From Abyssalbus ytuae (GTDB taxonomy: Bacteria > Bacteroidota > Bacteroidia > Flavobacteriales > Flavobacteriaceae): a stretch of 64,000 bases of DNA. The stretch is from contig NZ_CP094358.1 in NCBI RefSeq assembly GCF_022807975.1, positions 3,720,001 to 3,784,000 on the forward strand, written 5' to 3'. A program made the position numbers and the translations under genes. Position 1 is the stretch's first letter. Each line of letters begins with the position of its first letter. Of the stretch, positions 179 to 13,560 are shown in pieces. The notes beneath the pieces are model-generated. The model did no database searches. It saw nothing but the letters and a program-made list of their open reading frames with translations, and was not told where the DNA came from.

Positions 179-1567
179 ATGCGAAATATTATCATCTCTA
201 TATCAATAAAATTGGCTGTTGCACTCTTATTTACAGGGTGCAATAGCCATAAATCTACCAAAAAAGAATCGGAAGTAAACAATTCGGAAAAAGACCTTGT
301 GCAAATTCCTGACAGTACATTGTTGGACTCGGTTCAGAAACAAACCTTTAATTATTTCTGGGAAGGGGCAGAACCTAATTCCGGTATGGCACGGGAACGT
401 ATCCATATGGACAATATTTACCCGTTAAACGATCAAAGTGTAGTAACTACCGGAGGCACTGGTTTTGGCCTAATGGCAATATTGGTGGGAATTGAAAGAG
501 GTTTCATAACCAGGGAACAGGCGGTTGAGCGATATGAAAAGATTGTTACTTTTTTAGAAAATGCCAATCGTTTTCATGGTGCATGGCCTCATTGGATTGA
601 TGGTAAAACAGGTAAAGTACAACCCTTCAGTGCAAAAGATGATGGAGGAGATTTAGTTGAAACTGCTTTTTTAATTCAGGGACTGTTAACTGTAAAAGAA
701 TATTTTAAAAATGGTAACCAGAAGGAAAAAGAATTAACAGGCAGAATTCAAAAATTATGGGAAGAAGTCGAATGGAATTGGTATACCAGGGGAGGAAAAG
801 ATGTACTTTACTGGCATTGGAGTCCTAACCATGATTGGGATATGAATTTTGCAGTAAGAGGATATAATGAATGTCTTATTATGTACGTTCTTGCAGCCGC
901 TTCCCCAACTCATTCTGTTAATAACGAAGTATATAATACAGGATGGGCAAGAAACGGCCAGATTGTAAGTGACAGAGAATTCTATGATCTGGAAACAATA
1001 GTAGATCATTATGAAACTGCCGATTCCCCGGTAGGCCCGCTTTTTTGGGCACATTATTCATATTTAGGATTAAGTCCTAAAAATTTATCCGACAAATATG
1101 CAAATTATTGGGAATTGAACCGGAATCATGCACTTATTCATTATAAACATGCGGTTTCAAACCCGGCAGGATACAAAGGATATAGTAGTAAGAGCTGGGG
1201 GTTAACTTCCAGTTATTCGATGAAAGGTTATGCAGGACATCGTCCCGACAGAGATCTTGGGGTTATTTCTCCCACCGCTGCTTTATCATCAATGCCATAC
1301 ACCCCCAAGGAAAGTATGAGATTTTTAAGGTTTATGTATGAAGAACAAGATAGCCTTATCGGAAAATATGGGCCTTATGATGCTTTTAGTTTTGAACACA
1401 ATTGGTATTTGCCTAGATACCTTGCCATCGATCAAGGCCCTATTCCGGTAATGATTGAAAATTACAGGTCCGGTTTGCTTTGGAACTTATTTATGAATAA
1501 TACTGACATTCAAAATGGCCTGAAAAAATTAGGTTTTAAAACACCCTATTTGCATGATGATGAATAA
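179..1567 (+). CDS. GH144-type glycoside hydrolase (endo-beta-1,2-glucanase-like) lipoprotein, copy 1
   Basis: This is a 462-residue protein with a lipoprotein signal (LLFTGC, Cys21) followed by a short polar linker and one large all-alpha catalytic domain of the PF10091 'glycoamylase-like' family. That family includes CAZy GH144, known for endo-beta-1,2-glucanases and sophorose-releasing enzymes in Bacteroidota. Visible family motifs are TTGGTGFG, NRFHGAWPHW, the acidic cluster DDGGDLVETAF, VEWNWY and AIDQGPI. The D-x3-D-x2-E spacing in the acidic cluster matches what I recall of the proposed catalytic region. It starts 19 bp after the SusD-like stop and overlaps the next gene by 14 bp. Substrate assignment to beta-1,2-glucan is an inference from family and from the adjacent GH3. 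Confidence 0.85.
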   Translation: MRNIIISISIKLAVALLFTGCNSHKSTKKESEVNNSEKDLVQIPDSTLLDSVQKQTFNYFWEGAEPNSGMARERIHMDNIYPLNDQSVVTTGGTGFGLMAILVGIERGFITREQAVERYEKIVTFLENANRFHGAWPHWIDGKTGKVQPFSAKDDGGDLVETAFLIQGLLTVKEYFKNGNQKEKELTGRIQKLWEEVEWNWYTRGGKDVLYWHWSPNHDWDMNFAVRGYNECLIMYVLAAASPTHSVNNEVYNTGWARNGQIVSDREFYDLETIVDHYETADSPVGPLFWAHYSYLGLSPKNLSDKYANYWELNRNHALIHYKHAVSNPAGYKGYSSKSWGLTSSYSMKGYAGHRPDRDLGVISPTAALSSMPYTPKESMRFLRFMYEEQDSLIGKYGPYDAFSFEHNWYLPRYLAIDQGPIPVMIENYRSGLLWNLFMNNTDIQNGLKKLGFKTPYLHDDE

Positions 1568-2948
1568 AACAAATATCTTTCTCGTAATATATATGATTTT
1601 ATTTTGGTCATGTTCTGATAATGGACAGGAATACAAGTCACCTACCATAGAACAACCTGACACTCAAAATCCGCCCGAACCGGAAGAACCGGATATAACA
1701 GAGGAAGAATTACTGGATTTAACACAAAAAGAAACCTTAAAATATTTTTGGGATTATGCCGAAAGTAATTCGGGGTGTGCCAGGGAGAGATATCATGTAA
1801 ATAACCCTGCCCTTGATGCAAATACCGTAACAACTGGTGGGACAGGTTTCGGAGTAATGAGTTTGCTGGTAGGAATAGAAAGAAGTTTTATAACCCGGGA
1901 AGAAGGAGTGGAAAGACTAACCAAAATTTTAACTTTTTTAGAAAATGCCAACCGTTTTCATGGTGCATGGCCTCACTGGATGGATGGAACAACCGGAAAT
2001 GTAAAACCTTTCAGCACTATGGACAACGGAGGAGATCTGGTAGAAACAGCCTTTTTGGTTCAGGGTTTGATTTGTGTAAAAGAATATTTTAAAACCGGTT
2101 CTGAAAGTGAAAAAGAGTTAGCCGAAAAAGCCGATCAATTATGGAAAGAAGTAGAATGGAATTGGTATACACAGGGAGAAAATGTTTTATACTGGCATTG
2201 GAGCCCTGATCATGATTTTGCTATGAATCATCAGTTAAAAGGCTATAATGAAGTTCTAATTACCTATATTTTAGCAGCTTCTTCACCAGATTTTAGTATT
2301 ACAAAAGAAGTATACCAAAACGGTTGGGGATCTAATGGAGAGATAAAATCAAGTAATACCAAATACAATTTACCCCTTCTGGTCAAACATAATGGTGCAA
2401 CGGAATATGGCGGACCTCTTTTTTGGGCCCACTATTCTTATCTGGGCCTCAACCCCCGGGGGCTATCAGATGAGTATGTGAATTATTGGGATGTAAATGT
2501 TAATCATTCAAAAATTAATTATCAGTATTGTGTTGATAACCCGAAAAACTTTTCAGGATATGGAGAAGACTGTTGGGGGCTTACTGCCAGCTATACCAGA
2601 AATTCTGATGGTACAACCGGATATACCGCACACAAGCCCGGAAATGATACCGGAATTATTTCTCCCACGGCAGCTATAAGTTCAATACCCTATACTCCTG
2701 AACAATCACTAAAGGCTTTGAATCACTTTTATAGCTTAAAAGATAAGCTGTTGGGACCCGCAGGATTTTATGATGCCTTTAGTCCGCATTACAACTGGGT
2801 AACAAAAAGATATTTGGCTATAGACCAGGGACCAATTATTATAATGATAGAAAATTATAGAACAGGATTATTATGGAAACTATTTATGCAAAACGAAAAC
2901 GTCATGGAAGGCTTAAATAAATTAGGGATTGATTACTTAAACCAGTAA
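1554..2948 (+). CDS. GH144-type glycoside hydrolase (endo-beta-1,2-glucanase-like) lipoprotein, copy 2
   Basis: This 464-residue protein is a clear paralogue of the preceding gene. It shares TTGGTGFG, NRFHGAWPHWMDG, NGGDLVETAF, EVEWNWYTQG, YWHWSPDHD, GPLFWAHYSYLGL and LAIDQGPI at the same spacing. It has its own lipobox (FWSC) and a Pro/Glu-rich linker (about residues 27-50), typical of surface lipoproteins of Bacteroidota. Three consecutive ATG codons (1554, 1557, 1560) lie inside the end of copy 1, so translation is probably coupled and the exact start is open. The tandem pair looks like a local duplication followed by divergence. One copy may be exposed on the surface and the other periplasmic, or they may prefer different chain lengths; the sequence does not decide this. 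Confidence 0.85.
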   Translation: MMMNKTNIFLVIYMILFWSCSDNGQEYKSPTIEQPDTQNPPEPEEPDITEEELLDLTQKETLKYFWDYAESNSGCARERYHVNNPALDANTVTTGGTGFGVMSLLVGIERSFITREEGVERLTKILTFLENANRFHGAWPHWMDGTTGNVKPFSTMDNGGDLVETAFLVQGLICVKEYFKTGSESEKELAEKADQLWKEVEWNWYTQGENVLYWHWSPDHDFAMNHQLKGYNEVLITYILAASSPDFSITKEVYQNGWGSNGEIKSSNTKYNLPLLVKHNGATEYGGPLFWAHYSYLGLNPRGLSDEYVNYWDVNVNHSKINYQYCVDNPKNFSGYGEDCWGLTASYTRNSDGTTGYTAHKPGNDTGIISPTAAISSIPYTPEQSLKALNHFYSLKDKLLGPAGFYDAFSPHYNWVTKRYLAIDQGPIIIMIENYRTGLLWKLFMQNENVMEGLNKLGIDYLNQ

Positions 2949-2974
2949 TGAGAAACAGGTCATTTCCATTACTT

Positions 2975-3076
2975 TCCCATTAGTTGCAACAGCGCAGAAA
3001 TAAACTTTTTTTCATAGATGAACTTTTTTAATTTTATTACTTCGTAATACGAAAATCTGCGCTGTTGTTAATGGGA
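2975..3076. repeat. Long imperfect inverted repeat between GH144 copy 2 and the GH3 gene
   Basis: The left arm (2975-2998) reads tcccatta, then gttg, then caacagcgcaga. The right arm (3056-3076) is its near-perfect reverse complement, differing by a small indel. The arms enclose 57 bp of AT-rich DNA that itself contains a short palindrome (attac-tt-cgtaat). The unit occupies most of the 159-bp gap. It could be a miniature element with terminal inverted repeats, or an RNA hairpin that tunes readthrough into the GH3 gene. No direct target duplication is obvious. Confidence 0.6.
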
Positions 3077-3107
3077 CTGAAAACCAGAATTTTAAATATA
3101 CATACAA

Positions 3108-5411
3108 ATGAGATTATTCTACAAACTACTACTTACTACATTAATAATTTTATCTTTATCCGCTTGCAATAGCATACCAAACTCATCCGGGAATGATCAT
3201 CAGGAATTTTCCAAAGAAATTGATTCTATTATAGGGTTAATGACTTTAGAAGAAAAAATAGGACAGCTTAACCTCCCTTCTTCCGGCGATATTACAACCG
3301 GTTTAGCCCAAAGTACCGGAATAGCAAAAAAAATAGAAGAAGGAAAAGTCGGAGGACTTTTTAATATAAAATCTATAGAAAAAATAAAAGCTGCCCAAAA
3401 ACTTGCTGTTGAAAAAAGCAGGCTTAAAATCCCTTTACTATTTGGTATGGATGTTATACATGGCTACGAAACCACTTTTCCCATACCTTTGGGCTTATCC
3501 TGCACCTGGGATATGGATCTCATTAAAAAAACAGCACAGGTTGCGGCCAGAGAGGCAAGTGCCCAGGGAATAAACTGGACATTTTCTCCCATGGTAGATA
3601 TCTCTCGTGACCCCCGTTGGGGAAGAGTTTCGGAAGGCTCCGGCGAAGATGCTTTTTTAGGAAGCCAAATAGCTAAAGCCATGGTAGAAGGTTATCAGGG
3701 TGAAAATTTAACCGATAATAATACCATCCTTTCCTGTGTTAAACATTTTGCCCTGTACGGAGCTGCAGAAGCGGGAAGGGACTATAATACGGTGGATATG
3801 AGCCGGATACGAATGTATAACGAGTATTTACCACCTTACAAAGCCGCTGTTGATGCCGGAGTCGGATCAGTAATGGCGTCATTTAATGAAATTGACGGGA
3901 TTCCTGCAACAGGAAATAAATGGTTACTTACCGAAGTTTTGAGAAATCAGTGGGGCTTTAATGGTTTTGTAGTGACCGATTATACCGGAATTAATGAAAT
4001 GATAGATCACGGTATGGGAAATTTACAAACCAGTTCAGCGTTGGCCCTTACCGCAGGAGTAGATATGGATATGGTGGGAGAAGGTTTTTTAACCACATTG
4101 AAAAAATCGGTAGAAGAAGGAAAAATTTCTGTAGAACAAATTGATACCGCTGTAAAAAGAATTTTAAAAGCAAAATATAAATTAGGCCTGTTTGAAGACC
4201 CTTATAAATATTGCGATGAAAAAAGATCTCAAACAGAAGTTTTTACCGTTGAAAATCGAAAATTTGCAAGACAAGTGGCAGCTCAGTCTCTGGTATTATT
4301 AAAAAATGATAAAAACATTTTACCCCTGAAAAAAGAAGGAACCATTGCAGTAGTAGGGCCGCTGGCTAGTACAAACGAAAATATGGCAGGAACATGGAGT
4401 GTTGCTACCAATCAGAAAAAATCAATTTCATTTTTGGAAGGAATTAAAACAGTAGCCGGAGAAAAGGCTAACATATTATATGCTAAAGGTAGTAATGTAG
4501 ATTATGATATTGATTTTGAAAAACGAGCTACCATGTTTGGTAAAGAAATTAGCCGTGATAACAAAACAGACAAGCAATTAAAAGAGGAAGCATTGGCCCT
4601 TGCCAAAAAGTCGGATGTAGTTATTGCTGTTCTGGGTGAAACCGCCGAAATGAGTGGTGAAAGCAGTAGCAGGACAAATATTCAGATTCCGCAAGCACAG
4701 AAAGATTTACTACAGGCTTTATTGAAAACAGGAAAACCTGTTGTTTTAGTATTATTCACAGGAAGGCCTTTGGATTTAAATGAAGAAAGTAATACCGTCC
4801 CGGCTATATTAAATGTTTGGTTTCCGGGTAGTGAAGCAGGCATAGCAATAGCCGATGTGTTATTTGGTGATGTAAATCCTTCAGGAAAATTATCGGCTAC
4901 TTTCCCGAGGAGTATAGGACAAATACCCATATTTTATAACCATAAAAATACCGGGCGTCCATTGAGAAATAATAAAGGTGAATTTGAAAAATTCCGTTCC
5001 AATTATCTCGATGAGAGAAACGAACCTCTGTACCCGTTTGGTTTTGGCTTAAGTTATACCACATTTGATTACAACAACTTAAAATTAAGTGCAGAGGCTA
5101 TTGGAAAAAATGAAGCCTTGAAGATTTCTATAGATGTTACCAATTCAGGAAATTATGACGGCAAAGAAGTTGTACAACTTTATATACGTGATATGGAAGG
5201 CTCAGTAACCAGGCCGGTGAAAGAATTAAAAGGATTTCAAAAAGTTGAGATTAAAAAGGGCGAAACCAAAACAGTTACTTTTGAGTTAACCCCGCAAGAT
5301 TTAAAATTTTATAATTCTCAACTCGACTTTGTGGTTGAACCGGGAGAATTTCAGGTTTTTGTTGGAGGAAATTCCAATGCAGAATTAACAGATACTTTTA
5401 AATATCAGTAG
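3108..5411 (+). CDS. GH3 family beta-glucosidase lipoprotein
   Basis: This 767-residue protein has a lipoprotein signal (LSACNS), an N-terminal GH3 TIM-barrel, a C-terminal GH3 alpha/beta sandwich and an FN3-like tail (from about residue 670). The nucleophile is D291 in GFVVTDYTG. The acid/base candidate is E518 in EMSGESSSR. KHFALYG and GRDYNTVDMS are the substrate-pocket signatures of the BglX-like clade. GH3 enzymes remove single glucose units from non-reducing ends of beta-glucans. Next to GH144 genes, a sophorose or beta-1,2-oligoglucan substrate is the simplest inference, since such GH3-GH144 pairs are known in Bacteroidota. The stop TAG is one base before the ATG of the esterase gene, so the two are co-transcribed. 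Confidence 0.92.
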   Translation: MRLFYKLLLTTLIILSLSACNSIPNSSGNDHQEFSKEIDSIIGLMTLEEKIGQLNLPSSGDITTGLAQSTGIAKKIEEGKVGGLFNIKSIEKIKAAQKLAVEKSRLKIPLLFGMDVIHGYETTFPIPLGLSCTWDMDLIKKTAQVAAREASAQGINWTFSPMVDISRDPRWGRVSEGSGEDAFLGSQIAKAMVEGYQGENLTDNNTILSCVKHFALYGAAEAGRDYNTVDMSRIRMYNEYLPPYKAAVDAGVGSVMASFNEIDGIPATGNKWLLTEVLRNQWGFNGFVVTDYTGINEMIDHGMGNLQTSSALALTAGVDMDMVGEGFLTTLKKSVEEGKISVEQIDTAVKRILKAKYKLGLFEDPYKYCDEKRSQTEVFTVENRKFARQVAAQSLVLLKNDKNILPLKKEGTIAVVGPLASTNENMAGTWSVATNQKKSISFLEGIKTVAGEKANILYAKGSNVDYDIDFEKRATMFGKEISRDNKTDKQLKEEALALAKKSDVVIAVLGETAEMSGESSSRTNIQIPQAQKDLLQALLKTGKPVVLVLFTGRPLDLNEESNTVPAILNVWFPGSEAGIAIADVLFGDVNPSGKLSATFPRSIGQIPIFYNHKNTGRPLRNNKGEFEKFRSNYLDERNEPLYPFGFGLSYTTFDYNNLKLSAEAIGKNEALKISIDVTNSGNYDGKEVVQLYIRDMEGSVTRPVKELKGFQKVEIKKGETKTVTFELTPQDLKFYNSQLDFVVEPGEFQVFVGGNSNAELTDTFKYQ

Positions 5412-5412
5412 C

Positions 5413-6330
5413 ATGTTAAACAGACTGGTGTGGATAGGTTTTATTCTATTGTTTTTTTCACTAAAGGGAAATTCACAAACCAGGTATGTAGATTCGTTAT
5501 TTTCTGAAATAAACAAACACACTTTTACCTATTCTGATACCCTCCAACTTGATTTTTATAGCCCTGATGAAAAAAAGTCAATAAACAGGCCGCTCCTGAT
5601 TTTAGTGCATGGCGGAGGATTTGCCGGGGGAAAAAGAGATAACCCCCTGGAAAGTAAATTTTGTAAAAAAATGGCTGCCAAAGGTTATGTTGTGGCCTCC
5701 ATTTCATACAGGCTTACACGGAAAGGAAAAGGTTTTGGATGCAATTGCCCTGCTTCCGAAAAAATGAAAACATTTGTTACCGTTTCAGAAGATATATTAA
5801 AAGCAACTTCCTTTCTGATAAATAAAAAAAATGAATTGTTTATTGATAGTGAGAAAATAATCCTGATAGGAAGTAGCGCCGGGGCCGAAGGAGTTTTGAA
5901 CACCGTTTTTATGCAAAACCATAAAAGTTTTAAATACCTGCCTTATAACAACATTAAGTTTGCCTCCGTAGTTTCTTTTGCAGGCGCAGTTCTTGATATA
6001 AATTATATTAATAAGGTTAATGCCCTGCCACTGGCTTTATTTCATGGTAAAAAAGACAAACTCGTACCTTATGAAACAGCACCACATCATTATTGTAAAA
6101 ATGATAAACCCGGTTACCTGATGTTGAACGGTTCAGGAGCTATCGTAAATAAGTATAAACAAATTGGGGCTTCCTATAAATTATTTGTTGATAGTACAGG
6201 AAACCACAATTGGGCAAACCTTGCTTATTCATTTACCGGAGAAATAGCGGAGTTTATATATGAAACAGTAGTTCTTGAAAATAAAGTACAATGCGAAACC
6301 CCGGTATCTCCTAACCAAATATTAGAATGA
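5413..6330 (+). CDS. Secreted alpha/beta-hydrolase, probable carbohydrate esterase
   Basis: This 305-residue protein has an N-terminal signal sequence ending near GNSQ and an alpha/beta-hydrolase fold. The oxyanion-hole motif HGGG follows LILV. The nucleophile elbow is G-S-S-A-G with S155. An acid in the GKKDKLVPYE segment and the His of GNHNW complete a plausible triad. The order and spacing match esterase/lipase families often found in polysaccharide loci (BD-FAE/CE10-like). A C-x-C in GFGCNCPASE might form a disulfide. In this operon it would remove acetyl or other acyl groups from the substrate, but the sequence does not fix the ester it cuts. It begins one base after the GH3 stop. Confidence 0.78.
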   Translation: MLNRLVWIGFILLFFSLKGNSQTRYVDSLFSEINKHTFTYSDTLQLDFYSPDEKKSINRPLLILVHGGGFAGGKRDNPLESKFCKKMAAKGYVVASISYRLTRKGKGFGCNCPASEKMKTFVTVSEDILKATSFLINKKNELFIDSEKIILIGSSAGAEGVLNTVFMQNHKSFKYLPYNNIKFASVVSFAGAVLDINYINKVNALPLALFHGKKDKLVPYETAPHHYCKNDKPGYLMLNGSGAIVNKYKQIGASYKLFVDSTGNHNWANLAYSFTGEIAEFIYETVVLENKVQCETPVSPNQILE

Positions 6331-6392
6331 AACGAACATTAACAAATTTAATAATTCGCTTATAATCAATTTAATTATTAAAATTTAAACAT

Positions 6393-8102
6393 GTGAAAAA
6401 CTTACTTTATATATTACTGGTTTTTAACTTATTAGCTGCATGCAAACACACTCCGGAAAATAAATCGGTTCAAAATAAAACAAAATTACCACCTAACATT
6501 CTTTTTATAATGGCCGATGACCATGCAGCACAGGCTATTAGTGCCTATAGGCATGAAATTAGTAAACTGGCCCCTACCCCTAACATAGACCGGATAGCAA
6601 CAAACGGAGTAGTTTTTAAAAATAATTTTTGTACAAATTCTGTTTGCGGGCCCAGCAGGGCAGTTATACTAACCGGTAAGCACAGTCACATAAACGGGTT
6701 TAGAAAGAATGGAGAAATATTTGATGGCAACCAACCCACATTGCCAAAAAAACTAAAGAAATTAGGATATCAAACAGCAATAATCGGGAAATGGCATTTG
6801 CATGGCTTCCCTCAGGGTTTTGATTACTGGAAAATTCTAAACGATCAGGGTAATTATTACAATCCGGAGTTCATACATTTAAAAGATACGGCCAGTATCG
6901 ATAAAAATTATGTTGATACAACAGCTCATTGGGCTGTTAATATGAAGGACACAGCTATAGTAAAAGGATATGTAACAGATCTGATCACTGATTATGCAAT
7001 TGACTGGCTAAAAGAAAAAAAACAGGCTGATAAACCATTCTTTATGATGGTTCATCATAAAGCACCCCATAGAAACTGGATGCCGGCATTACGCCATCTT
7101 AACAAGTATGATTCGATTAAGTTTCCTTTGCCCGCAACATATTTTGCTTCTCATGAAGGGCAGCAGGCCGCTAAAGAACAGTTACAGACTATTTATAAAG
7201 ATATGTATGAAGGCCACGACCTTAAAATGACAAAACACTATGGCACTCCAGAATTAGCACACAATCCATGGAAAATAGATTTTGAAAGAATGACACCGCA
7301 CCAGCGATCTGTCTGGGATTCTGCCTATCAGGCAAAAAATGATGCTTTTCATAAAGCCAATTTAAAAGGAGAAGAGATGGCAGAGTGGAAAGGCCAACGT
7401 TATTTACAGGATTATATGGCTACTATTGCTTCGGTTGATGAAGGTGTAGGCAAAATACTTGATTATCTTGAAGAAACAGGCCTCGATAAAAATACGTTAG
7501 TAGTATATACTTCCGACCAGGGTTTTTATCTGGGAGAAAAAGGATGGTTTGATAAACGTTTTATGTACGAAGAATCTATGCGTATGCCTTTGCTTATGCA
7601 ATTACCCGGAGTAATAGAATCGGGAACTACAATTGAAGCATTAACACAAAACCTTGATTTTGCGGATACATTTCTTGATTTTGCCGGGGGAAATCAATTA
7701 AACGATGACATGCAGGGAGAATCCTTTAAACCTTTATTGGAAGGGAAGATAAAAGATGAAAATTTCAGAGATGTGATCTATTATCATTATTATGATTTTC
7801 CGGCATTTCATATGGTAAAAAAACATTATGGAGTAAGAAGCAGGCGATATAAACTCATGCATTTTTACGATGATATCGATGCCTGGGAATTTTATGACCT
7901 GGAAAAAGACCCGCAGGAACTGCATAATGCCATCAATGATAAAGAATATGAAGATGAAATTAATATGATGAGGTACAAACTCGATTCCATTCAAAAATAT
8001 TACAGGGTAACCGAAAAAGAGTTTGAAAAAGCTTCAAAAGTAGAAATCGAAAAAGCATATAAAACTTTTGAAAAATTAAGAGGTAACTCTAATAAAAATT
8101 AA
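6393..8102 (+). CDS. Type I (formylglycine) sulfatase lipoprotein
   Basis: This 569-residue protein carries a lipobox (LLAAC, Cys17). The sulfatase core begins PPNILFIMADDHA, which holds metal-binding Asp residues. The catalytic signature C85-G-P-S-R89 is followed by AVILTGKHSHINGF and GKWHLHG, as in Cys-type sulfatases that need conversion of Cys85 to formylglycine. TSDQGFYLGEKGWFDKRFMYEESMRMPL is represented by the TSDQGF and EESMRMPL segments, both family hallmarks. No maturation enzyme (anSME) is encoded here. The ATG at 6391 is followed at once by TGA, so the gene must start at the overlapping GTG 6393. An AT-only inverted repeat (6347-6356 with 6373-6382) lies just upstream. Its presence suggests a sulfated glycan. 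The sulfatase subfamily is not assigned. Confidence 0.92.
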   Translation: MKNLLYILLVFNLLAACKHTPENKSVQNKTKLPPNILFIMADDHAAQAISAYRHEISKLAPTPNIDRIATNGVVFKNNFCTNSVCGPSRAVILTGKHSHINGFRKNGEIFDGNQPTLPKKLKKLGYQTAIIGKWHLHGFPQGFDYWKILNDQGNYYNPEFIHLKDTASIDKNYVDTTAHWAVNMKDTAIVKGYVTDLITDYAIDWLKEKKQADKPFFMMVHHKAPHRNWMPALRHLNKYDSIKFPLPATYFASHEGQQAAKEQLQTIYKDMYEGHDLKMTKHYGTPELAHNPWKIDFERMTPHQRSVWDSAYQAKNDAFHKANLKGEEMAEWKGQRYLQDYMATIASVDEGVGKILDYLEETGLDKNTLVVYTSDQGFYLGEKGWFDKRFMYEESMRMPLLMQLPGVIESGTTIEALTQNLDFADTFLDFAGGNQLNDDMQGESFKPLLEGKIKDENFRDVIYYHYYDFPAFHMVKKHYGVRSRRYKLMHFYDDIDAWEFYDLEKDPQELHNAINDKEYEDEINMMRYKLDSIQKYYRVTEKEFEKASKVEIEKAYKTFEKLRGNSNKN

Positions 8103-8113
8103 GATTCAAACCT

Positions 8114-9955
8114 ATGAAAAAATATATTCTTATAATATCGGCTATCCTTTCTGTGGCTTGTAATATTAAAAAAAAAGATCAGGAAAAGGAATTAATACAA
8201 ACTGAAAATTCTGAACCAGATCCTATTGTCAATGGTTTTAGCACGTATTGTAATCCCATCGACATTGATTATTCATATATGACTCATTACGCATATAAAA
8301 ATGTGAGTTATCGTTCTGGAGCCGACCCGGCAGTGGTAAGGTTCAAAGATGCATATTATATGTTTGTAACCCGGTCTCATGGGTACTGGTATTCTAAAAA
8401 TTTAACTAACTGGCAGTTTATATCTCCCCAAAGCTGGTACTTTAACGGGTCTAATGCCCCGGCTGCATGGCCTTTTAATGATGAATTACTCGTATTGGGA
8501 GATCCCTCGGGAATAGGAGCCATAATAAAGACTGATGATCCTAAAAAAGGCAACTGGAAAACAACTTTTAACGTGATTCCGCATACGCTGCACGATCCGG
8601 CAATTTTTGTGGATGACGATGGAAAAGTTTATATATATGAAGGCTCGTCAAATAAATTTCCCATAAAAGGGATGGAATTAGACGCTGATAAAAACTTTGT
8701 GCCTGTAGGTGAACCTGTGGATTTACTTTTACTTCATCCCAATGAACATGGCTGGGAAAGGTTTGGTCAAAATCATAAATCAACTGTCGATCCGTTTATA
8801 GAAGGACCATGGATGACCAAACATAACGGAAAATATTACCTTCAGTACGCAGCACCCGGAACCCAGTGGAATATATACGGTGATGGTGTTTATGTGGGAG
8901 ACCACCCCCTGGGGCCCTTTACATATGCCCCTTACAATCCTGTAGCCTACAAACCGGGAGGTTTCTTAAATGGTGCCGGTCATGGAAGTACTGTTAAAGA
9001 CCATCATGATAATTACTGGCATTTTGCAACCATGCCTATATCGGTAAATTATAAGTTTGAACGGAGAATTGGAATGTACCCCGCTGGTTTTGAAGAGGAT
9101 GGGCAAATGTATGTAAACACAGCCTATGGTGATTATCCTCAGTACGCTCCTAACGCTAAAGCAAAAAATCATAAAAACCGTTTTACAGGATGGATGCTGT
9201 TGTCTTACAAAAAGCCGGTAAAAACAAATTCGGGCGTAGTGAGTATACTTGCTAAAATCATTGAGGAAAATGAAAAAGAATATCTTCAGGAAAAACTAAA
9301 ACCCGAATACGATGCTGCTAAAGTAACCGATGAGAATATAAGAACATTCTGGGTAGCTGAAAGTAATAATGATTCTACCTATTTGTCGGTAGATTTAGAA
9401 GCAAAAATGAAAATAAAGGCAATACAGATAAATTTTCACGATTTTAATGCCGAAGTATTTGAAAGAGTAGACACTCTGAAACATCAGTTTATAATTGAAG
9501 CTTCATCCGATAATAAAACATGGAAAACCATTGCCGACTATTCAAAAAATGAGAGGGATCAACCTCATGCTTATATAGAAATAAAAGATTCGGTAGAAGC
9601 CAGGTATATAAAATATAAACACGTACATTGTTCTAACAAATATCCGGCAATTTCTGAATTAAGGATATTTGGAACAGGTTTAGGAGAAAAACCTGCAAAA
9701 CCTGCAAATTTTGTAGTAAAAAGAAAAGAGGACCGAAGAGATGTCTCATTAAGCTGGAATAAAGTAAACAATGCACAGGGGTATATGCTGTATTGGGGAA
9801 TAAAACCGGAAAGACTGAATAATTCGGTTTTAATATATGATAACAATTTTTACGATTTGAGAGCCCTTAATATTAATCAGGAATATTTCTTCAGGGTTGA
9901 GGCATTTAATGAAAACGGTATTTCAGAAAAAAGTGAAATTGTAAAAACAGAGTAG
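8114..9955 (+). CDS. GH43-type glycosidase with F5/8C (CBM32-like) and FN3 domains, lipoprotein
   Basis: This 613-residue protein has a lipobox (LSVAC). The N-terminal five-bladed propeller domain (about residues 40-345) shows the GH43 triad in order: D71 in GADPAVVRF (base), D161 in LHDPAIFVDDD (pKa modulator) and E230 in FIEGPWM (acid). It is followed by a discoidin/F5-8C module (about 385-525, ending ELRIFGTG) and an FN3 module (about 530-613, LSWNKVNNAQGYMLYWG). GH43 enzymes act mostly on arabinosides, xylosides or galactosides, but this long architecture also occurs in members of unknown specificity. It starts 11 bp after the sulfatase stop and is part of the same operon. Confidence 0.82.
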   Translation: MKKYILIISAILSVACNIKKKDQEKELIQTENSEPDPIVNGFSTYCNPIDIDYSYMTHYAYKNVSYRSGADPAVVRFKDAYYMFVTRSHGYWYSKNLTNWQFISPQSWYFNGSNAPAAWPFNDELLVLGDPSGIGAIIKTDDPKKGNWKTTFNVIPHTLHDPAIFVDDDGKVYIYEGSSNKFPIKGMELDADKNFVPVGEPVDLLLLHPNEHGWERFGQNHKSTVDPFIEGPWMTKHNGKYYLQYAAPGTQWNIYGDGVYVGDHPLGPFTYAPYNPVAYKPGGFLNGAGHGSTVKDHHDNYWHFATMPISVNYKFERRIGMYPAGFEEDGQMYVNTAYGDYPQYAPNAKAKNHKNRFTGWMLLSYKKPVKTNSGVVSILAKIIEENEKEYLQEKLKPEYDAAKVTDENIRTFWVAESNNDSTYLSVDLEAKMKIKAIQINFHDFNAEVFERVDTLKHQFIIEASSDNKTWKTIADYSKNERDQPHAYIEIKDSVEARYIKYKHVHCSNKYPAISELRIFGTGLGEKPAKPANFVVKRKEDRRDVSLSWNKVNNAQGYMLYWGIKPERLNNSVLIYDNNFYDLRALNINQEYFFRVEAFNENGISEKSEIVKTE

Positions 9956-9987
9956 ATTAACAATCAACTTATAATAATAACACAACA

Positions 9988-10833
9988 ATGAAACAAAAAC
10001 TCATCATCCTGGCTTTTTTCTGCTTAATTGTATATTCAATAAAAGCACAGGAAATTACTGTATTAACTTATAACGTAAAGTTTGATGATACCAGGGACAC
10101 GGTAAATGGCTGGAATAATCGTAAAGATTTTATGGTAAGTCAGTTAAGCTTTTATGAACCTGATATTTTCGGCACACAGGAAGGATTAATTAACCAGCTT
10201 AAATTTTTAAAAGAAAACCTGTCCAATTACAATTTTATTGGTGTAGGCAGAGATAAAGGTAATAGTGAAGGCGAGCATACCGCTATTTTTTATAAAACCG
10301 ATAAATTAAAAGTTTTAGAGCATAGTACCTTCTGGCTGTCCGAAACACCTCAAAAACCTTCAAAAGGATGGGATGCCGCCCTTAACCGTATTTGTAGTTA
10401 TGCTCTTTTTAAACATAACGGCTCAAAACAAAGTTTCTGGGTATTTAATACACACTTTGATCATATGGGAAAACAAGCCAGAAAAGAAAGTGTAAAACTC
10501 ATCCTTAAAAAAATTGAAGAACTTAACCATAAAAAACTGCCCGTAATACTCATGGGAGATTTTAACCTGGAACCTAATAACGAAAGTATTGTTAAGTTAT
10601 CTCAAGTTATGAATGATGTTCACCTCACAAAAGGGATTAATATTTTTGGTCCGGCCGGTACATTTAACGGATTTAATTTTCATGAACCTGTTACCAGAAG
10701 AATAGATTATATTTTTCTGTCAAAAACAGATTTTAAAGTAGTGAAATATGCTGTACTAAGCGATTCTAAAAATTGCAAATATCCCTCCGATCATTTGCCG
10801 GTACTGGCAAAAGTAAATTTTAAACGTGAGTAG
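9988..10833 (+). CDS. Secreted endonuclease/exonuclease/phosphatase-fold protein
   Basis: This 281-residue protein has a signal peptide (MKQKLIILAFFCLIVYSIKAQ) and a complete EEP metal-dependent phosphoesterase fold. Visible are LTYNVKFDD, FGTQEG (metal-binding Glu), NTHFDHMG, MGDFNLEP and the terminal SDHLPV. This fold includes DNases, sphingomyelinases and inositol-phosphate phosphatases. Stand-alone secreted members are frequent inside Bacteroidota polysaccharide loci, where the role is not settled and may be removal of a phosphate or phosphodiester decoration. It overlaps the GH2 gene by 8 bp, so it is clearly part of this operon. No nuclease substrate should be assumed. Confidence 0.82.
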   Translation: MKQKLIILAFFCLIVYSIKAQEITVLTYNVKFDDTRDTVNGWNNRKDFMVSQLSFYEPDIFGTQEGLINQLKFLKENLSNYNFIGVGRDKGNSEGEHTAIFYKTDKLKVLEHSTFWLSETPQKPSKGWDAALNRICSYALFKHNGSKQSFWVFNTHFDHMGKQARKESVKLILKKIEELNHKKLPVILMGDFNLEPNNESIVKLSQVMNDVHLTKGINIFGPAGTFNGFNFHEPVTRRIDYIFLSKTDFKVVKYAVLSDSKNCKYPSDHLPVLAKVNFKRE

Positions 10834-13342
10834 GAATATTTTTATACTTATTAGTTGCTTATTTTATCTAAGGCTTTTTTCCCAAAAAACCGTACTTGAG
10901 GACTGGGAATTTAGCCTGGATAATGAGCCAGCTGCATTTTGCAATGTAAAAATACCCCATACATGGAATAAAAATGATGCTTTTGATGATGCAGGTGGCT
11001 ATTACAGGGGTATCGGTACTTATAAAAAGAAAATAATCATAAAAGATATTTCAAAAAAGTACTATCTGCATTTTAAAGGCTCCAACCAATTTACTACGCT
11101 ATGGATAAATAACAGAAAGGTTGGAGAACATAGAGGAGGGTATACCTCCTTTAGTTTTGACATTTCTGATTTTATTCAGAAAAACGAAAATGAGATTACA
11201 ATTACAGTAAATAATAGTCATAACGAAAAAATCCCTCCTCTGGATGCCGATTTTACTTTTTATGGAGGTATTTACCGAAGTGTATATTTAGTTGAAGAAA
11301 ATTTTATTCATTTTAAAAAACATTTAGGAAACGATTATGTAAAAACTGATGCCGTAGTTACAAAAGAGAAAAAGGGTAGGGTTACCATACATGCTGTTAT
11401 AACCAATTCTGAGAATACCCAAAAAGGTGGGCTTCATTTAAGTTTAATTTCCCCCGAAGGAACAGTAAAAACCATAAATAAAAAAATAAAACTACAAGAA
11501 GGAGAAAATAAATTCATTATTGATTATGAAATAGAATCGCCGCTTTTATGGTCTGTTCAAACTCCCAATTTATATAAACTGACTGCAGAAATTCTTGATA
11601 AGAAAGGACTGGTACAGGATAGTTATTCCTGTAATATCGGATTTAGAACAATACAGGCAACAACCAAAGGATTCTTTTTAAATGGTGACTATTTAAAATT
11701 AACAGGAGTGAACCGTCATCAGGACTTAGAAGGTTACGGAAATGCAGTCCCTGTTCATTTACAATTGGACGATTTGGTGAAAATTAAAGAAATGGGCAGT
11801 AATTTTTTACGTTTGGCCCATTATCCGCAGGATGAAGAAATTTATAAAGCGGCCGACAGCCTCGGTCTTATTCTTTGGTCTGAAATACCGGTGGTGAACA
11901 AAGTGCCCCTTGGAAATGATTACGAGAGTTATAAAGAGAATGCCCTCCTGATGCAAAAAGAACATATCTTTCAAAATTATAATCATCCTTCATTTGTTTT
12001 TGTAGGATATATGAACGAAATATTTTTAAGAACAGTTTTTGATAGCCCGGCGGAAGAAACAAAACAACAGATTGTAAATAATACATTAGATTTAGCCGGG
12101 GCACTTGAAGATTTAACCCGAAAAGAAGCCCCCGGTCATATCACGGTAATGGCTTTACACGGAAATCAGATTTACAATGAAACAGGGATTGCACAAATTC
12201 CTATGGTTATCGGATGGAACTTATATTTTGGTTGGTATGGCGGTAATATTTATGATTTGGGAGGGTTTCTGGATAAAGAAAATAAAAAGTTTCCCAATCG
12301 TCCCCTTATTATCTCAGAATATGGAGTAGGGGCAGATGTCAGGTTGCACAATGAAAACCCGGAGATTTTTGATTTTTCAGAAGAATATCAGTTAGATTAT
12401 CATATTGGTTATTGGAATCAGGTGCATGAAAGAGATTTTGTAATTGGTATGAGTGCCTGGAATTTTGCCGATTTTGGATCAGAATTCAGGGGAGACGCCA
12501 TGCCCCATATTAATCAGAAAGGATTGGTGAATTTTAACCGGATCCCTAAAAACATTTACTATTGGTATAAAGCTACTATGAAACCAACTGAAAAGCTTAC
12601 CAGAATTTACAGGGATTTGCCGGTTCATTTAAGTAATTCCCCTAAAAAACTTTTAAAAATTATAAGTAATCAACCTGTTATAGTAAAATTAAATGGAAAT
12701 AGTATAGCAAATGAATCACCTTTAAATAATTTAATTAACCTGGAAATAAACCTTGTAAAAGGTCAAAATGTAATAGAAGTATATGGCCGGAATGATATTC
12801 TGTTAGATAAGGAAATAATAGAATGGAAAAAACCACTCATAACAAACAAAGGCGATTTGCTTGCAATAAACTTAGGAAGCAAAAACTATTTTAAGGATAC
12901 GGAAAATGTAATATGGTATCCGGTTACCACATCCACAGGCAATATTTATTTAGCAGGCAATATCAAGCAAGTTAAAACCAGTGCCAATGTAAAAGGTACA
13001 AGCAATGACCCCGTGTATCAGTACGGGTTATCCGGATTGAATGAAATAAAAATAGAAGTTCCAAAAGGTAAATATGAAGTTAAATTGCTATATGCAAATT
13101 TACTTAAACGCAAAGCCATTGCTTATGAACTGAAAACAGAAAAGGAGCCGGGGGAAATTATTTCAAAACCCATCAAATTTTATGTTAATAACCTGTTGGT
13201 AGAGATTGACACCAAAGAAAAACTCACGAAATTTGAAAAGACTATAATCACAGAAGTCAAAAATGACCAACTTCAGATTTCATCTGCCACTAGTGCTCCC
13301 TTTACATTAAGCGGAATAATGATTAAAAAAATAGAACTCTGA
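10826..13342 (+). CDS. GH2 family glycosidase (beta-galactosidase/glucuronidase-like)
   Basis: This 838-residue protein has a signal peptide (FILISCLFYLRLFSQ) and the GH2 order: sugar-binding jelly roll (about 25-175), Ig-like domain (about 180-285), TIM barrel (about 285-590) and a C-terminal beta region. The acid/base is E398 in GYMNEIF, and the nucleophile is E498 in IISEYG. GVNRHQDLEGYG and LRLAHYP are barrel signatures of the family. It starts with GTG inside the end of the upstream gene. Members of this type cut beta-galactosides, beta-glucuronides or related sugars, and specificity cannot be read here. It is the last gene of the operon, and a weak hairpin (13364-13381) follows the stop. 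Confidence 0.88.
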   Translation: MSRNIFILISCLFYLRLFSQKTVLEDWEFSLDNEPAAFCNVKIPHTWNKNDAFDDAGGYYRGIGTYKKKIIIKDISKKYYLHFKGSNQFTTLWINNRKVGEHRGGYTSFSFDISDFIQKNENEITITVNNSHNEKIPPLDADFTFYGGIYRSVYLVEENFIHFKKHLGNDYVKTDAVVTKEKKGRVTIHAVITNSENTQKGGLHLSLISPEGTVKTINKKIKLQEGENKFIIDYEIESPLLWSVQTPNLYKLTAEILDKKGLVQDSYSCNIGFRTIQATTKGFFLNGDYLKLTGVNRHQDLEGYGNAVPVHLQLDDLVKIKEMGSNFLRLAHYPQDEEIYKAADSLGLILWSEIPVVNKVPLGNDYESYKENALLMQKEHIFQNYNHPSFVFVGYMNEIFLRTVFDSPAEETKQQIVNNTLDLAGALEDLTRKEAPGHITVMALHGNQIYNETGIAQIPMVIGWNLYFGWYGGNIYDLGGFLDKENKKFPNRPLIISEYGVGADVRLHNENPEIFDFSEEYQLDYHIGYWNQVHERDFVIGMSAWNFADFGSEFRGDAMPHINQKGLVNFNRIPKNIYYWYKATMKPTEKLTRIYRDLPVHLSNSPKKLLKIISNQPVIVKLNGNSIANESPLNNLINLEINLVKGQNVIEVYGRNDILLDKEIIEWKKPLITNKGDLLAINLGSKNYFKDTENVIWYPVTTSTGNIYLAGNIKQVKTSANVKGTSNDPVYQYGLSGLNEIKIEVPKGKYEVKLLYANLLKRKAIAYELKTEKEPGEIISKPIKFYVNNLLVEIDTKEKLTKFEKTIITEVKNDQLQISSATSAPFTLSGIMIKKIEL

Positions 13343-13432: not shown

Positions 13433-13463
13433 CCACCCCGACAGATTTGTTCTGTCGGGATGG
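13433..13463. repeat. Hairpin-forming intergenic repeat with a CTGTCGGG core
   Basis: The arms ccccgacaga and tctgtcggg pair around a 5-base loop, extended by cca/tgg with one mismatch. The stem is strong but not followed by a T run, so it is a poor terminator. The tctgtcggg end resembles the ccctgtcggg core of the repeats at 32331-32617, which suggests a dispersed REP-like family. It lies in the gap after the GH2 operon. Confidence 0.5.
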
Positions 13464-13560
13464 TTGGGATTGTTATTATTAGTGCTTAACCGAAAAACAT
13501 TAACTTTAATCCCGTAACGGAAGGTTATATGAAATCCTTCTTTAGTAAAAATGTAATTTA

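Follow-up and report, generated by a model that had tools for sequence, protein, structure and literature searches.

A SusC/SusD locus of Abyssalbus ytuae combining GH144 enzymes with sulfatase and phosphoesterase genes, a candidate system for an anionic, decorated β-1,2-glucan

The window analysed here, 64,000 nucleotides of Abyssalbus ytuae (NZ_CP094358.1, positions 3,720,001 to 3,784,000), opens within a PUL that lies on the + strand and runs from a regulator through SusC, SusD, two GH144 genes and GH3 to a set of genes beginning with an esterase and ending with a GH2. The sequence-only reading had described an esterase, a sulfatase, a GH43, an EEP-fold protein and a GH2 at 5413-13342, joined to a β-1,2-glucan module; open reading frames and Pfam matches bore out all of these genes, including an S1-type sulfatase, each intact, on the + strand and at the positions first given. 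The features are listed below; positions prefixed L002 are in the numbering of that locus, the others in that of the window.

L002:12533-15349, +, regulator, 938 aa, preceding SusC/SusD in the genome
L002:15610-18708, +, SusC, preceding SusD in the genome (TIGR04056, 3.5e-239)
1-159, +, 3' end of the SusD-like lipoprotein gene (whole gene, L002:18726 to window 159)
179-1567, +, GH144 A, β-1,2-glucanase-type, with lipoprotein signal (lipobox) (Pfam PF10091, 9e-77)
1554-2948, +, GH144 B, β-1,2-glucanase-type, close to CpSGL (PDB 5gzh, E 2e-168)
2949-3107, +, intergenic inverted repeat/RNA hairpin (z -5.7)
3108-5411, +, GH3, BglX-type β-glucosidase (NF011678, 9e-282, above cut-off)
5413-6330, +, esterase, BD-FAE/α/β hydrolase (PF20434, 4e-23; GSSAG serine motif)
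6393-8102, +, S1_11-type sulfatase, lipoprotein, GTG start, CGPSR (Pfam Sulfatase 2e-53, SGSH_C 2e-60)
8114-9955, +, GH43-like glycosidase with F5/8 C and fn3 domains (Pfam GH43, 1e-22)
9988-10833, +, EEP-fold phosphoesterase, relative of mannosyl-6-phosphatase 4c1r (Exo_endo_phos, 5e-17)
10826-13342, +, GH2, predicted β-hexuronidase (GH2 domains, 3e-25; NxK at HINQKGL)
13434-13464, +, GC-rich hairpin 3' of the last gene, probable end of the unit

The locus thus holds an adjacent SusC/SusD pair, a regulator and degradative enzymes on a single strand, as is characteristic of a PUL. Intervals had been given as 1 to 32 bp or overlaps, which held for most junctions (GH3-esterase, 1 bp; sulfatase-GH43, 11 bp; GH43-EEP, 32 bp; EEP-GH2, 8-bp overlap), but the esterase and sulfatase genes are 62 bp apart. 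This spacing suggests that the locus is co-transcribed as a single unit, which probably ends at the GC-rich hairpin. A scan for intrinsic terminators inside the unit returned 15, about equal to the 11.4 obtained in shuffles. The 159-bp gap between GH144 and GH3 carries a stable hairpin lacking a U-tract, and in most relatives its place is occupied by a gene for an α/β hydrolase of about 260 aa. The possibility that this repeat is a mobile element was rejected, as it is present in a single copy in the genome.

The GH144 proteins have the PF10091 domain, and GH144 B, which is close to the endo-β-1,2-glucanase CpSGL, keeps the general-acid Glu (in GYNE) and the DNGGDLVET motif of that enzyme; the pair is predicted, from these sequence features, to be β-1,2-glucanases. 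It had been considered that the SusC/SusD pair might be specific for an unrelated glycan; however, SusD ends 19 bp before the first GH144 gene, and in Winogradskyella the full enzyme set is accompanied by a SusD of the same type as that of the window.

The association of the two halves was examined in a sample of 199 genomes of Flavobacteriaceae type. A close copy of the sulfatase was present in 31 of them, every one of which had GH144, a gene carried by 52 of the 199 (Fisher p 1e-22); 30 of 32 such copies lay within 25 kb of GH144, while none of nine more distant sulfatase relatives was linked to it. EEP genes were present in 30 of 64 loci with both GH144 and sulfatase vs 2 of 22 GH144-only loci (p 0.002); the corresponding counts were 27/64 and 3/22 for the esterase and 16/64 and 0/22 for GH2, and GH43 was also commoner where the sulfatase was present. 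Other GH144 loci contain calcineurin-like phosphoesterases or GDPD. The locus set is dominated by named marine genera; soil- and groundwater-type members occur.

The GH144-linked sulfatases form essentially one clade, and the sulfatase tree requires 7 changes of label (GH144-linked or not) vs 33 in shuffles. The clade reaches Sphingobacterium, Proteiniphilum, Margulisbacteria, Flammeovirga and the alphaproteobacterium Qipengyuania, whose locus combines GH144, a TonB receptor, GH3, the sulfatase, EEP and GH97. A plain β-1,2-glucan PUL might merely have come to lie beside an unrelated gene set for a sulfated glycan, an arrangement that would fit the minimal SusC-SusD-GH144-GH3 loci with no recognised decoration genes (L087-L091) and the hairpin-bearing gap between GH144 and GH3. 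Against this, the same genes are tightly co-localised again and again: they are re-associated, with their order changed, in dozens of genera, and other phyla show them as well, which argues that the composition of the locus is not due to chance. Chance adjacency of two loci is thus strongly disfavored, being rejected by both the co-occurrence and the tree label changes, and we consider it very improbable. The earlier proposal of a decorated glucan or a heteropolysaccharide as target is partly supported, in that the two halves are one evolutionary unit.

The sulfatase has a complete S-site (C/S-x-P-S-R, here CGPSR; DD; GKWH; SDQG; K) and retains the S1_11 sugar triad, namely the O4 Asp/Arg dyad (FDKR) and the O3 His, as located in columns of our own alignment by a published rule (PMC10154612). 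Among solved structures whose function is known, those closest to it are S1_11 enzymes, a group that can also act on 6S-GlcNAc or 6S-L-galactose (PMC10154612), and the predicted activity is removal of 6-O-sulfate from a gluco-configured sugar. No anSME was found in the complete host genome, where the FGE-domain matches were only GldK and GldJ, and about 10 of 30 sulfatase-positive relatives examined likewise had no high-scoring FGE; the claim of sulfatase activity is therefore held at reduced confidence. The protein could be unmatured and inactive, or could be a phosphodiesterase acting on β-1,2-glucan substituted with phosphoglycerol or phosphoethanolamine, a reading consistent with phosphoglycerol being a known substituent of this glucan (PMC11842490) and with a paralogue in the same genome (70%) that adjoins GDPD. 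However, the S-site motifs and the S1_11 triad are essentially invariant across the GH144-linked clade, the locus already has a separate phosphoesterase, five strong sulfatase-domain genes are retained in the genome, and unrecognised maturation systems are possible. A role other than that of a sulfatase is accordingly judged unlikely.

The EEP protein (PF03372; best match 4c1r/3mpr) has the Asn/Glu/His/Asp/His catalytic motifs and is predicted from its sequence to be a phosphatase or phosphodiesterase acting on sugar O6. Its nearest kin not linked to GH144 lie beside GDPD (glycerophosphodiesterase) genes, and the tree allows for repeated recruitment of EEP to GH144 loci. GH43 has the β-propeller fold with Asp base, Asp modulator and Glu acid (D71/D161/E230, invariant); in a fold search for its subfamily the best match, 5msx (BT_3662), was at 19% identity and low TM. 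GH2 has the catalytic motifs MNE and SEYG and, in loop 8, the NxK motif of GH2 β-hexuronidases (PMC12243196).

GH43 and GH2 suggest a substrate beyond a homoglucan, the NxK motif hinting at uronic acid and hence at a heteropolysaccharide or uronyl branches. If the former, the target (an exopolysaccharide of algae or bacteria, for instance) would combine uronic acid, pentose/galactose, sulfate and phosphate with β-1,2-glucosyl units arranged in stretches or as side chains, and GH144 would handle only part of it. In accord with this, NxK is invariant across the linked GH2s, roughly half of the loci carry a GH43 whose catalytic residues are intact, and GH97 occurs in some loci. The sulfatase paralogue, moreover, sits in a GDPD-GH16-GH31-GH92 PUL without GH144, which means that the sulfatase does not have to recognise the β-1,2 linkage. 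Some loci, however (among them L101, L110, L131 and L136), are limited to GH144, GH3 and the sulfatase, with GH2, GH43 and EEP not recognised, and the minimal substrate therefore looks like a glucan core plus sulfate. We regard a heteropolysaccharide as doubtful, albeit the most serious of the competing explanations.

We favor, with a probability of roughly 60%, a single SusC/SusD PUL for an anionic, decorated β-1,2-glucan. Natural substituents of β-1,2-glucan include succinate, phosphoglycerol and phosphoethanolamine, and cyclic forms are reported from Chlorella (PMC11842490). Because the undressing enzymes accompany those for β-1,2-glucan in dozens of relatives and in some distant bacteria, the glucan very probably bears acidic groups (sulfate, phosphate, acyl); the decoration is probably at O6, where the nearest characterised families act, and uronic-acid or pentose branches are possible. 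To our knowledge, no sulfated or phosphorylated algal β-1,2-glucan has been described. The two GH144 enzymes would cleave the chain, SusCD would import the fragments and the BglX-type GH3 would release glucose, while the products of the esterase-to-GH2 half would strip the decorations and let the exo-enzymes proceed: the sulfatase taking off 6-O-sulfate, EEP the 6-phosphate or 6-phosphodiester, the esterase acyl groups, GH43 pentosyl/galactosyl-type side residues and the NxK-type GH2 hexuronosyl side residues. More tentatively, and at somewhat less than even odds, such a glucan (6-O-sulfated, with 6-phosphate or phosphodiester and possibly uronic branches) is widespread in aquatic habitats, and a sulfatase clade dedicated to its digestion evolved, together with recruited EEPs, alongside GH144 in Bacteroidota, Margulisbacteria and Alphaproteobacteria. 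If true, this would represent an overlooked marine pool of carbon, sulfur and phosphorus.

Among known systems, BT3177 and BT4656 (S1_11, 6S-GlcNAc) and the L-galactose-6-sulfatase group share the S-site motifs, the FDKR dyad and the O3 histidine with the window sulfatase, but the latter falls in a clade of its own, linked to GH144 and marked by CGPSR and PAFH motifs. PDB 9s03, a "putative sulfatase" of Mariniflexile fucanivorans, is of this clade (99.8% to locus L113) and is itself encoded in a GH144 PUL, which does not favor the fucoidan-enzyme role that its source species would suggest; it is apparently a C-to-S variant, to which the window protein is 64% identical, and our literature search found no publication describing it. 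EEP shares its fold and a predicted action on phosphoesters at sugar O6 with mannosyl-6-phosphatase 4c1r and a GlcNAc-6-phosphodiesterase (PMC10704324) but falls in another subgroup, and GH2 resembles the β-hexuronidases of Bacteroides uniformis (5uj6/6d50) in NxK motif and domain layout, although the window type, of predicted function, occurs in only a subset of loci. The association of GH144 with sulfatase was noted in 2019, when Lapebie et al. proposed a ubiquitous, sulfate-decorated marine β-1,2-glucan (PMC6499787). PULs of marine Bacteroidetes in that study and a Maribacter dokdonensis 62-1 cluster (PMC8072126) likewise unite SusC/SusD, GH144, GH3 and sulfatase, with the same sulfated-glucan inference. 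The relevant sections of the two papers name GH144, GH3, susCD and sulfatase, whereas the window adds EEP, esterase, NxK-type GH2, GH43 and the S1_11-type clade. New here are the links to phosphoesterase, hexuronidase and esterase, the sulfatase clade and its tie to structure 9S03. The 2019 proposal can now be taken up in testable pieces: a defined sulfatase clade with a crystal structure, a co-travelling phosphoesterase and esterase, hosts that can be cultured (Winogradskyella, Kordia, Leeuwenhoekiella, Mariniflexile), and a chemistry predicted to involve sulfate and phosphoester at O6 of a β-1,2-glucan.

The five genes for which a single transcription unit had been proposed from sequence (an esterase, a sulfatase, GH43, an EEP-fold protein and GH2, in that order) are all present and intact on the plus strand of a complete 4.37-Mb genome (window at G000:C1:3720001-3784000, G000 being the window genome and C1 its contig).

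Genes of the locus (window positions)
179-1567, plus strand, first GH144, upstream of the five-gene set
1554-2948, plus strand, second GH144 (GH144b), upstream of the five-gene set
3108-5411, plus strand, BglX-type GH3, directly before the esterase
5413-6330, plus strand, BD-FAE-type esterase, ORF intact
6393-8102, plus strand, sulfatase, ORF intact
8114-9955, plus strand, GH43, ORF intact
9988-10833, plus strand, EEP-fold protein, ORF intact
10826-13342, plus strand, GH2, ORF intact

The sequence-only reading gave the spacing as 1 to 32 bp or overlaps, which holds for GH3-esterase (1 bp), sulfatase-GH43 (11 bp), GH43-EEP (32 bp) and EEP-GH2 (8-bp overlap), but not for esterase-sulfatase, where the gap is 62 bp. 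The GH144-GH3 gap (2949-3107, 159 bp) holds a near-perfect inverted repeat, single-copy genome-wide, that forms a strong hairpin (z -5.7) with no U-tract; in most relatives this position is occupied by a gene for an alpha/beta hydrolase of about 260 aa. A GC-rich hairpin lies 3' of GH2, the last gene. The SusD gene ends at position 159; before it, in the same orientation, the surrounding genome encodes SusC and a regulator of 938 aa. A SusC/SusD pair specific for an unrelated glycan would have counted against the sequence-only reading; the window's SusD type (64-70%) accompanies the full set of GH144, GH144, GH3, GH2, esterase, sulfatase, GH43 and EEP in Winogradskyella echinorum and W. eckloniae, which speaks against that possibility.

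When the family was sampled with a single genome for each genus (199 in all), GH144 was found in 52 and a close copy of the sulfatase in 31, all 31 of which also carried GH144 (Fisher p 1e-22). Thirty of 32 close copies lay no more than 25 kb from GH144; of the other two, one is near the end of the sequence available, on a short contig, and one is the paralogue in the window genome itself. None of nine more distant sulfatases (at most 53% identity) was near GH144. A FastTree phylogeny called for 7 changes of the GH144 label, versus 33 when labels were shuffled. Named genomes, when scanned, showed this pattern too, in Kordia, Winogradskyella, Flavivirga, Muricauda, Leeuwenhoekiella, Maribacter, Polaribacter and others, and beyond these in Sphingobacterium arenae, Proteiniphilum, a Margulisbacteria MAG, Flammeovirga and the alphaproteobacterium Qipengyuania. 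The Q. qiaonensis contig (L141) clusters EEP, GH144, a TonB receptor, GH3, an S1_11-type sulfatase and GH97, and is a parallel version without SusCD. The remaining genes are optional, yet enriched alongside the sulfatase: comparing GH144 loci with and without it, EEP occurred in 30/64 versus 2/22 (p 0.002), GH2 in 16/64 versus 0/22 (p 0.009), the esterase in 27/64 versus 3/22 (p 0.02) and GH43 in 34/64 versus 6/22 (p 0.05), counts that are lower bounds, as 20-kb loci can miss edge genes, and that include near relatives which are not independent.

The window sulfatase matches S1_11 enzymes, and its closest solved chain is 9s03, a Mariniflexile fucanivorans protein 99.8% identical to that of locus L113, encoded within a GH144 PUL and apparently crystallized as a C-to-S variant. 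Across 67 relatives (at least 58% identity) there is next to no variation in the CGPSR motif, S-site residues, FDKR dyad and O3 histidine. In a review (PMC10154612), recognition of a gluco-configured 6-sulfated sugar at its O4 and O3 is attributed to an Asp/Arg dyad and a histidine; their placement on the FDKR and histidine columns is that of our own alignment, not of the cited work. A second copy, 70% identical, lies elsewhere in the genome (L056, G000:C1:2418501-2438500) in a PUL that runs regulator, SusC, SusD, GDPD, GH16, this sulfatase, a TPR/cytochrome-like protein, GH31 and GH92.

The host genome has five strong sulfatase-domain genes and no recognized maturase (L192, L193): no anSME was found in the complete genome, and its only FGE-domain (PF03781) proteins resemble, by size and neighbours, the gliding proteins GldK and GldJ. 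Of the relatives examined that carry the sulfatase, about two thirds have a high-scoring FGE and the others lack one. The host may have a maturase of an unrecognized kind; if not, its sulfatase would be inactive or act in some other way. The lack of a recognized maturase weakens the case for sulfate as such more than the case for a decorated glucan.

The structures nearest to the EEP protein are 3mpr and 4c1r, the latter deposited as a mannosyl-6-phosphatase, and a neighbouring subfamily strips phosphocholine and phosphoethanolamine carried at O6, readily from GlcNAc but only weakly from glucose (PMC10704324). The closest EEP clade that lies away from GH144 loci adjoins GDPD-type glycerophosphodiesterases, in two cases within a minimal SusC-SusD-GDPD-EEP set, and other GH144 loci contain calcineurin-like phosphoesterase or GDPD genes. 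The small SusC-SusD-GDPD-EEP loci L189, L190 and L187 may be minimal PULs whose substrate is a glycerophosphodiester or bears phosphoglycerol. An EEP paralogue (46%) in the same genome (L057, G000:C1:3854001-3874000) has two GDPD-type proteins, a calcineurin-like phosphoesterase and SusC/SusD alongside, and looks like a phosphodiester-utilization locus.

GH144b matches the endo-beta-1,2-glucanase CpSGL (5gzh, E 2e-168), including the catalytic stretches GYNE and DNGGDLVET. The GH2 carries an NxK motif (HINQKGL), conserved among GH144-linked relatives, which separates GH2 beta-hexuronidases from beta-galactosidases (PMC12243196), and is thus a predicted hexuronidase. GH43 keeps its catalytic residues; a search for a close solved structure found none.

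Since some loci hold GH144, GH3 and a sulfatase only, glucan and sulfate would form the core substrate. For the sulfatase and the EEP protein alike, the nearest characterized families act at O6, a free position in beta-1,2-glucan. Succinate, phosphoglycerol and phosphoethanolamine are known substituents of beta-1,2-glucans, and Chlorella is reported to contain cyclic ones (PMC11842490). On the most economical reading, the target would be a beta-1,2-glucan made anionic by sulfate and phosphoester groups, sometimes with uronic acid or pentose branches.

Lapebie et al. (PMC6499787) describe marine GH144 PULs that gain a sulfatase, with an unknown, ubiquitous sulfated marine glucan inferred, and a Maribacter study (PMC8072126) describes a GH144-sulfatase cluster; the locus is therefore a member of a recognized class. 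Our analysis adds the sulfatase clade and its tie to 9s03, the spread of that clade past the Flavobacteriaceae, also into hosts of seemingly non-marine origin, and the phosphoesterase partners and predicted hexuronidase.
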